Source of the DNA: a virus
Length of the DNA stretch: 29,073 nt
IMG/VR virus record: IMGVR_UViG_3300027969_000334
Location: 1 to 29,073 of that record
Direction: 5' to 3' (one strand)
The number at the start of each line of letters is the position of its first letter. Position 1 is the first letter of the stretch. The translations under genes were made by a program, and so were the position numbers. Under the pieces are notes generated by a model. It saw nothing but the letters and a program-made list of their open reading frames with translations, had not been told where the DNA came from and ran no database searches. Below, one piece after another: positions 3-2,088 of this stretch.

Positions 3-140
3 TTATTTACTCTCTAGTCGTTTCTTTTCTTCTTCTAAGTATTCTTTTAACATAAAGACATAGACCTCTCGCTCGAACGGTAACATGTTATCAATATCTG
101 ATAAAGCATATTTGTGGTACTGCATCAAGGCAAAATTCAT
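3..140 (-). CDS. 51: gp51-like baseplate hub assembly ORF, probably expressed as a -1 frameshift extension of gp26
   Basis: This is a 45-codon frame directly downstream of the gp26-like gene. From its ATG it encodes MNFALMQYHKYALSDIDNML followed by PFEREVYVFMLKEYLEEE, a short, charged, helix-rich protein of the type annotated as gp51 (baseplate hub assembly catalyst) beside gp26 in marine T4-like phages. T4 gp51 is thought to act in hub assembly and is not a major virion part. The ATG has no Shine-Dalgarno-like sequence; the bases before it read ATCATTATAAAATG. The frame is open upstream of the ATG and joins the gp26 frame by a -1 shift at a T run (182-188). The shift would give a 298-residue gp26-gp51 fusion with linker LINLCHDSLVNHYK. 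Independent initiation remains possible. The family call rests on position and a remembered motif. Confidence 0.6.
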   Translation of the reverse strand: MNFALMQYHKYALSDIDNMLPFEREVYVFMLKEYLEEEKKRLESK

Positions 141-178
141 TTTATAATGATTTACCAAGCTGTCATGACAAAGGTTTA

Positions 179-898
179 TTAAAAAAAACTTTGCATTCCC
201 TCCAGATGGATGGTATGCGCTTTGTTACAGACAGGACAATTATAATCAATAGTGTGGGATAGTTTTGGCATAGTATCAAAGAAACTTTGTATTTTACCAA
301 ACTGTTCCGATGTTAAATTGTTAATAAATTCCATTAGCTCTTCTTCAGTCTGTTCTTTTGCATGATATACTGAATCTGCATCGTAAATGTAATCAATTGA
401 AGAAGCCACCAATTTAAAGGTATCCTCAGCAGTTACATCACCACCTTGGAGTTTCTTAACATCATCAATATTAGGATACTTCATAACAACACCGACTGTA
501 CCAAACAATTCAATTTTGTTAGTATGTCCTTCTTTTTCTTGTACAGTTATCTGTGATAGATCAACTGTGTGCTGAATTTTAGCCTTAGCGTTATCTTCAC
601 CATGATCGACATCGCAAGATAAAACGATATCAACAGTTTCACCGACAGACTTAGATCTTAACTGCGTGAAGATATATTCAATATCAAACATCGCCAGTTT
701 ACTAATATCAATAGTTTCTGTGATACAAGATTTGATAACTTCTTTTAAAGTATCAATCATAACTCTTTGGTCGTCACTTTGTTGAGCAACCAAAAGTGCT
801 TTTTGATCTTTAACTAAAAATGGTCTGTATGTAACAGACTTCTTAGTTGAAGGAATCACCAAGTTATAAATTGGTGTGTTATTCATAGGTAAAGCCAT
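179..898 (-). CDS. 26: Baseplate hub subunit gp26-like (T4_baseplate family)
   Basis: A 239-residue protein of the T4 gp26 family. The N-terminus (IYNLVIPSTKKSVTYRPFLV) leads into the helical segment KDQKALLVAQQSDD, then a hydrophobic stretch with DIEYIFTQLRSKSVGE, all typical of the family. The C-terminus has a CPVC knuckle followed by two histidines (residues about 222-231), which could bind zinc. In T4, gp26 acts in assembly of the central baseplate hub. The start is well supported: AAAGGAG lies 7 bases before the ATG. The gene follows gp16 with only 2 bases between them. It ends in a T8 run and TAA that looks like a -1 frameshift site joining it to the gp51-like frame. The N-terminal part also resembles the short form of tail assembly chaperones. 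Confidence 0.85.
   Translation of the reverse strand: MALPMNNTPIYNLVIPSTKKSVTYRPFLVKDQKALLVAQQSDDQRVMIDTLKEVIKSCITETIDISKLAMFDIEYIFTQLRSKSVGETVDIVLSCDVDHGEDNAKAKIQHTVDLSQITVQEKEGHTNKIELFGTVGVVMKYPNIDDVKKLQGGDVTAEDTFKLVASSIDYIYDADSVYHAKEQTEEELMEFINNLTSEQFGKIQSFFDTMPKLSHTIDYNCPVCNKAHTIHLEGMQSFF
182..188 (-). other. Candidate programmed -1 ribosomal frameshift site (T TTT TTT) before the gp26 stop
   Basis: On the minus strand the end of gp26 reads AGT TTT TTT TAA. The seven T's at 188-182 form a perfect X XXY YYZ slippery heptamer in the gp26 frame, immediately before the stop. After a -1 slip the next codons are TTA ATA AAC CTT, and the frame stays open through the gp51-like ORF to its stop at 5-3. 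A weak imperfect hairpin (ACC/GGT outer arm, TGT/ACA inner arm, 175-154) could begin 6 bases after the heptamer. Tail assembly chaperones of many tailed phages use such shifts. Applying that to gp26/gp51 is inference. Confidence 0.6.
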
Positions 899-900
899 AA

Positions 901-1314
901 TTATTCTCCTTTAGACATATTGTTAATTAACTTATTCAACTCAGCAGTGCTACCTGTAAAGATAACATTGTTATTCGTCACTTCTTTTCTAGATCCCTCT
1001 TTAGGTGTATCTAGTTTTTGCTTCTGTTGATGTAGATCCAATAACTGTTGGTTTATATCAGCCAACTGCTTCATTAGATTTCCAACAACTTCAAATGCTC
1101 TTGGATGCTCAGACTGCATAGCCACATCGAGTGACTTCTGCAGTGCTTCCTGCCCTTGCTGGAGTAAAATACGAAGATTACTTCGAGTCACATCGAAGTC
1201 GTCTTGAATTTTATTTGTAGAGTTGTTAATAACTTCTCCAGTCTTCGTTATCACTTCAGTCTGCCCCCTTGGTTGTATACCAAACTCGGCAGATAATGTT
1301 TCATCAATCTTCAT
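901..1314 (-). CDS. 16: Terminase small subunit gp16
   Basis: A protein of 137 residues from the ATG at 1314-1312. A start at the TTG at 1320 would add two residues, but the AAGGA Shine-Dalgarno sits 6 bases before the ATG and directly abuts the TTG, so the ATG is chosen. It matches T4 gp16 along most of its length: DFDVTRSNLRILLQQGQEAL corresponds to T4 DYGVVRRNMHFQQQ..., then HPRAFEVVGNLMKQLADINQ to SPRHMEVFATLMGQM..., and near the C-terminus NNNVIFTGSTAEL to NATVFMGSPTEL. The middle is a long helical pair used for oligomerisation in the family. It works with the gp17 ATPase in DNA packaging. T4 gp16 is 164 residues, so this one is short at the N-terminus. In T4 gene 16 sits next to 17; here it lies in the 4-2-54-16-26 leftward operon. 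Confidence 0.88.
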   Translation of the reverse strand: MKIDETLSAEFGIQPRGQTEVITKTGEVINNSTNKIQDDFDVTRSNLRILLQQGQEALQKSLDVAMQSEHPRAFEVVGNLMKQLADINQQLLDLHQQKQKLDTPKEGSRKEVTNNNVIFTGSTAELNKLINNMSKGE

Positions 1315-1332
1315 TCGCAATCCTTAATGATG

Positions 1333-1340
1333 TATTTATT
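1333..1340 (-). promoter_or_regulatory. Possible late promoter (AATAAATA)
   Basis: The minus strand reads TAATAAATACATC just after the gp54-like gene, overlapping its stop codon. The octamer is one base from the T4 late promoter TATAAATA. It would start a transcript about 10-15 bases before the gp16 ATG and serve gp16-gp26-gp51. AT-rich sequence makes chance matches common. Confidence 0.3.
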
Positions 1341-2088
1341 AGAACTTCAATAATCCTGGAAGTTTAGTTACTCCATAGGATAGAACAGAACCAGTAACGA
1401 AATTACCAGCTGTAGTACCCAATGTTCTATTAAGAGTTTCTTGAAAACCAGTAAAATTGTTAGTCATCTTATCGATCAAACTAGTAGAAATTTTCTGGTC
1501 ATCTGCTAATTGTGATATTTCTTTTTGTTTCCAGTATTTGTACTGCATATTAACAGTTAGTTTCATCACATCTTTAGAAGCATTATCTAATGAAACTGCA
1601 TTAACATTCTTTGGATATGCTTCAAATAATTCAACTTGATATCTTGTTTTATCATTAATGTCTTGGACTTCAATGACAAATTTTGGTGCAATATAATTTT
1701 TGTAATATTCAAATGTTCTTCTATCGGGATTGGAGATTAAACTCATCCAATCATCAAACATTTTCTTTACTATCAAATCATTGTCAACATAGAAAGTTAA
1801 ATTTATTGGCTCGTATAGTTTTTCATATGGAACTTCACGGAACTCGCCGAAGGTTCTATTTTGAACAGTAGAATAGTTAATCCCTGGAAGTTGAACAGAG
1901 TCGCAAAACAATAAAATTCTTCTTAGATTACCTGGATTTATGCCACCTGGAGGTCTCATTTCTACAGCAAATCTATTGGTTCTTGCTAACGCACCAGTTT
2001 TAACTTCAGAAATAAACTGGTTAATTTTATTTGGTTTAGCATCTTTCCTTGCATTATCTTTACTAAGGAATGGTAAATTAAGTGCCAT
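1339..2088 (-). CDS. 54: Tail tube initiator-like baseplate protein (gp54-like; tail-tube fold)
   Basis: A 249-residue protein with the layout of the T4 gp19/gp54 tube-protein group. An N-terminal segment with RTNRFAVEMRPPGG precedes LFCDSVQLPGINYSTVQNRT. Then come YEPINLTFYVDNDLIVKKMF with DDWMSLISNP, and late DVMKLTVNMQYKYW; the pattern of unusual-strand, W-containing helix and closing strands is shared by tube subunits. A Gly-rich C-terminal tail follows. In T4, gp54 sits on gp48 and starts polymerisation of the gp19 tube. The start is supported by AGAAGGG 7 bases upstream. It lies between a probable gp2 gene and gp16. A gp19-like tube protein is the alternative, but a separate main tube gene would be expected near the sheath gene outside this window. 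Confidence 0.62.
   Translation of the reverse strand: MALNLPFLSKDNARKDAKPNKINQFISEVKTGALARTNRFAVEMRPPGGINPGNLRRILLFCDSVQLPGINYSTVQNRTFGEFREVPYEKLYEPINLTFYVDNDLIVKKMFDDWMSLISNPDRRTFEYYKNYIAPKFVIEVQDINDKTRYQVELFEAYPKNVNAVSLDNASKDVMKLTVNMQYKYWKQKEISQLADDQKISTSLIDKMTNNFTGFQETLNRTLGTTAGNFVTGSVLSYGVTKLPGLLKF

Follow-up and report, generated by a model that had tools for sequence, protein, structure and literature searches.

A T run at the end of gp26 almost certainly lets ribosomes shift −1 into a gp51-like extension in a marine T4-like virus

Most long-tailed phages use a −1 frameshift for a helper protein that builds the tail. In phage lambda, gpG binds the tape-measure protein and gpGT brings in the tube protein; both are absent from the virion (PMC5009743). 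The same source calls the G-T frameshift widely conserved "except T4". One listing counts T4 gp26 and gp51 among the hub assembly chaperones and notes that gp51 is not in the particle (PMC3004832), and the gp51 of cyanophages has been described as lacking its first ~200 residues (PMC3037559). The idea of a chaperone pair in T4-like phages is already published: as represented in citing papers (PMC10885494, PMC12846349), Vladimirov, Gautam & Davidson 2022 (Virology 566:9-15) reported a short TAC-N and a long TAC-NC. By these accounts the short form and the fused long form have separate genes in some T4-like phages (PMC10885494), a two-gene arrangement that the authors of PRFect attribute to that study; poly-T −1 signals in T4-like TAC-N genes are credited to it as well, and a like case is described in the Vandenendeviridae (both PMC12846349). 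Our own literature search on gp51 or gp26 together with frameshifting found no paper on T4-like phages. The dnaX gene provides a further point of comparison, with a Shine-Dalgarno (SD)-like element about 10 nt upstream of its heptamer.

The DNA analyzed here (the window) comprises 29,073 nt of IMG/VR virus record IMGVR_UViG_3300027969_000334. Its gp26 region contains the following features:

1339–2088, minus strand: tail tube protein, upstream of gp26 and on the same strand (phrog_45, E 7e-38)
901–1320, minus strand: small terminase-like gene between the tail tube gene and gp26 (phrog_445, E 3.2e-35)
179–898, minus strand: gp26 (T4_baseplate family, PF12322 / phrog_150), putative short isoform, TAC-N-like, 239 aa
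198–203, minus strand: SD-like GGAGGG (codons CTG GAG GGA), 9 nt 5' of the heptamer, a candidate frameshift stimulator
182–188, minus strand: slippery heptamer T_TTT_TTT, read from the sequence, with the zero-frame stop TAA (181–179) directly 3'
3–182, minus strand: −1 frame extension, gp51-like and TAC-C-like, 59 codons plus the stop TAA at 5–3
138–140, minus strand: first ATG of the −1 frame (codon 15), opening a 45-codon gp51-like frame, without an SD at usable spacing

On the minus strand of the window, gp26 (Pfam PF12322, E 8.5e-66 over residues 9–239; PHROG 150, E 1.8e-73) ends in ...GGA ATG CAA AGT TTT TTT TAA. The run of eight Ts occupies 188–181 and contains the in-frame heptamer at 188–182. 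The original prediction, made from the letters of the window, had placed T_TTT_TTT directly before the gp26 stop and an open −1 frame beyond it, and the sequence bears out both points. After a one-base step back the next codon is TTA at 182–180, and translation in the −1 frame from 182 gives LINLCHDSLVNHYKMNFALMQYHKYALSDIDNMLPFEREVYVFMLKEYLEEEKKRLESK*, starting with LINLCHDSLVNHYKMNFALMQYHKY and ending in ...ESK. This extension counts 59 codons as a whole, 51 from a TTG at 158 (codon 9) and 45 from the ATG at 140; neither of these starts has a Shine-Dalgarno sequence at a usable distance, as had been claimed for the 45-codon frame. The family phrog_634, 'baseplate hub assembly catalyst', matches extension residues 3–57 (E 2.5e-23), including the part ahead of the ATG. 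Joined to gp26 by a frameshift, the extension would yield a protein of about 298 aa, and a fusion peptide is predicted to span SFF-LINLCHDSLVNHYK at the junction.

The original prediction had called for a comparison of this junction across related phages, and we assembled gp26 loci from publicly available phage genomes and from IMG/VR contigs. Automatic screening of 192 loci gave 133 distinct gp26 junctions, 114 of which combine an in-frame T_TTT_TTN 0–8 codons before the stop with an open −1 frame for the same peptide; at 60% gp26 identity these fall into 35 clusters. In all 49 junctions checked by hand, T_TTT_TTN stands in frame within 0–2 codons of the stop, and the −1 extension is 51–66 residues long. 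Heptamer and open frame are present in S-PM2, P-SSM2, pf16, Cr30, phiM9 and phiM12, and also in Aeromonas 65, Stenotrophomonas BUCT608 and Vibrio D479/D486. Within the window's lineage we saw no conserved SD and ATG for gp51, no absence of the slippery run and no stops in the −1 frame, the outcomes that had been named as contrary to a frameshift. From the codon usage of the same genes, 11.3 heptamers would be expected among the 35 clusters, all of which were selected as heptamer-bearing; because of this selection, the internal FF pairs of the same genes are the fairer control, and only 1 of 37 of these is encoded as T_TTT_TTN (Fisher 2e-19). TTT is used at the site even where it is rare elsewhere, as in pf16, BUCT608, phiM9 and Rhizobium Y68 (P(TTT|F) 0.08–0.31). 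The conservation of the heptamer is far beyond chance.

The 19 of 133 junctions without the heptamer come from the Ackermannviridae, from two Vibrio phages whose extension is similar, or from T4-type phages without a downstream gp51. In the Ackermannviridae and their relatives (L096 1489–2440, L097, L118–L135), a gp26 homologue is followed by a conserved −1-frame extension without T_TTT_TTN; in the Ackermannviridae the extension contains LLSYFVMCDELK..GYSIFEI..MPWHLD and gp26 ends GAR ATT TTC ATY TAA; the Vibrio phages (L004, L101) are similar and likewise lack it. Some members of this heptamer-less group show TAATG, and others have no start for about 12 codons. The distance from heptamer to gp26 stop, 0–2 codons elsewhere, is 8 codons throughout L159 and L186 and in some members of L195.

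We next compared the locus with its T4-type counterparts, in which gp26 (about 208 aa) and gp51 (about 250 aa) are divergently transcribed neighbours. The window shows no such arrangement: gp26 and the extension lie on one strand in overlapping frames. In profile comparisons (hhalign), window-type gp26 matches T4-type gp26 with a probability of 99.8, and the gp26-extension fusion matches T4-type gp51 along the full length, uninterrupted at the slip junction (query 13–290, template 7–253, probability 99.5). T4-type gp26 and gp51 match each other at 99.4 and, judged by these profiles, are paralogues. The extension matches the gp51 C-terminus (95.9) and not gp26 (0.1). When T4-type gp51 was split, its N part alone matched gp26 (98.5) and its C part alone matched the extension (96.9); shuffled and reversed controls gave 0.1–0.3. 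On this homology, T4-type gp51 is the in-frame long form. Since the fusion is homologous to T4-type gp51, and gp26 and gp51 are paralogous, T4-type phages encode short and long forms in two divergent genes, whereas phages of the window's kind would make both from one gene and a slip.

Gene order and predicted structure bear on the function of the pair. The order in the window is tail tube, small terminase, gp26, extension. The window ends before the next gene, which in the close relatives L013 and L028 and in L046 matches tape-measure families. The small terminase-like gene (901–1320, minus strand) is oddly placed inside a tail module. An AlphaFold2 model of gp26 (pLDDT 84) and an AlphaFold model of T4-type gp51 (pLDDT 90) show a similar order of helices and strands, with added C-terminal helices in gp51. 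For residues 1–94 of the gp26 model, the top three solved structures are 3fgx (Z 7.7), 2ob9, the HK97 tail assembly chaperone (Z 7.7), and 5ir0 (Z 5.3), all middling scores, with the next row at 4.2. Pfam Phage_TAC_3 matches gp26 at an E value of only 0.41, and sequence-based searches of solved structures, run with profiles of gp26 and T4-type gp51, brought up no credible relative. A Foldseek search of the PDB with the T4-type gp51 model, with re-alignment by VIA, gave nothing meaningful, chaperones included, which is weak evidence either way. The proposal that gp26/gp51 is a chaperone pair like G/GT is supported by the order tail tube, gp26, gp51, tape measure, and further by the middling fold match to the HK97 chaperone and by T4-type gp51 as the in-frame long form.

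Taken together, we consider it very probable that a single tail assembly chaperone gene underlies both gp26 and the gp51-like segment, with a −1 slip giving access to the latter, and a ribosome can almost certainly slip at the end of gp26 to produce a longer tail-building helper. Most ribosomes would stop at TAA and release the 239-aa short form, gp26, while a minority would slip −1 on T_TTT_TTT and continue to a long form of about 298 aa, that is, gp26 with a 59-residue tail. On the model of lambda G/GT, the short form would cover the tape-measure protein and the long form would bring in tube subunits, after which neither would remain in the tail. As in lambda, where the pair acts on the tape measure (PMC5009743), a short protein would be accompanied by a minor −1 extension; the slip site differs, the extension in the window has 59 residues, and the chaperone roles are putative.

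A different reading takes gp51 for a conventional small gene with its own initiation, either by reinitiation once gp26 has terminated or at a weak start, and the T run for nothing but AT-rich FF codons. Several phages do have an annotated gp51 CDS whose start overlaps the gp26 stop (Cr30, phiM9, S-CRM01), and TGATG or TAATG occurs at that stop in some lineages; because of such overlapping ATGs, free gp51 may be made there as well, and the TTG at codon 9 or the ATG at codon 15 of the window could also yield a short free gp51. Against this, the expectation that usable gp51 starts would be missing from many relatives holds in 12 of the 35 clusters, which, judged by their commonest members, have no ATG, GTG or TTG before extension codon 18 even though the peptide ahead of that codon is conserved (for example, RISLGQESISNYYNTNF). 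With no start before the conserved part, a free-standing gp51 is impossible in those clusters. The stretch is left unannotated in several records (ACG-2014j, P-RSM1, Syn30), the window has no SD in place, the heptamer is kept at the codon level against usage, and T4-type gp51 is homologous across the junction. We therefore regard a purely free-standing gp51 as very unlikely.

Slippage of RNA polymerase on the eight Ts, so that the fusion would come from a shifted message and not from the ribosome, is if anything less probable. The window's run is close to the runs of nine reported for transcriptional slippage in bacteria (PMC5009743), but many relatives have just six Ts between other bases (TCTTTTTTCG), shorter than the reported runs, and these six-T relatives retain the exact phase of the ribosomal heptamer and the open −1 frame. 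Sequencing error is another conceivable source of the frame break: homopolymers are prone to it, the window comes from an IMG/VR virus record and is possibly a fragment, and the virus might really have gp26 and gp51 in a single frame as one gene. This is hardly credible and already contradicted: dozens of independent contigs and complete phage genomes show the same frame relation, which is also found with T6-C in place of T8. A −1 slip by the ribosome thus stands as the preferred reading.

What would promote such a slip in the window? U_UUU_UUU slips less well than A_AAA_AAG in E. coli (PMC5009743), and the original prediction had pointed to a possible hairpin starting 6 bases past the heptamer. 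This element did not hold up: GTCATGAC, just 3' of the heptamer, is a palindrome without a loop, and the predicted folding of the 65 nt that follow it is no better than that of shuffled sequences (z −0.77; 42 of 200 shuffles as good), with similar results for longer stretches (z −0.36 for 85 nt and −0.90 for 105 nt). Strong predicted stem-loops a few nt past the heptamer were seen only in some other lineages, at L001 2205–2279, L002, L088 and L094 (S-PM2, P-SSM2, ACG-2014j, Cr30), with z −4.35 in S-PM2, and in these phages the stem-loop is likely a lineage-specific stimulator.

A better candidate in the window is the upstream GGAGGG, which, together with the stop that immediately follows the heptamer, probably promotes the slip. 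Its predicted duplex with the anti-SD (−9.8 kcal/mol, calculated for the close relative L008, which has the same sequence) is the strongest of all 6-codon stretches in the gene. Of the 17 clusters that have E-G here, 13 encode the E as GAG, versus 74 of 381 elsewhere (Fisher 1.3e-6). Compared with synonymous shuffles, the SD-like pairing reaches only p 0.05 in the window's cluster alone and 1e-5 in all clusters combined, the latter uncorrected for residual relatedness. No gp51 start in the window is close enough to be served by GGAGGG, whose spacing fits stimulation of the dnaX type. As in the E. coli dnaX cassette, a homopolymeric heptamer is combined with an upstream SD-like element; the window differs in having U instead of A in the heptamer, no clear 3' stem-loop, and a shifted product that is the longer one. 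We tentatively suggest, at somewhat less than even confidence, that the slip in the window's lineage is driven by the upstream GGAGGG and the immediate stop and not by downstream RNA structure, and that other T4-like lineages swap these for 3' stem-loops, stop-overlapping starts or gene duplication.

The locus in the window is therefore a well-supported new example of an already described frameshift chaperone. It shares with the report by Vladimirov et al. 2022 the short TAC-N and long TAC-NC of T4-like phages; the main point of that report, as cited, is the two genes, whereas the window's lineage shows a frameshift arrangement in which the heptamer runs straight into the stop. In the literature examined, which represents Vladimirov et al. 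2022 through citing papers, we found neither the start-codon test nor the codon-level statistics nor the SD-like element. If the frameshift operates as proposed, the gp51 of cyanophages would be short because its N-terminal part is gp26 itself, joined by the slip. Many marine T4-like genomes have a split or unannotated gene at gp26/gp51, a locus at which one family appears to have solved the same problem by frameshifting, by gene duplication and possibly by reinitiation across lineages.
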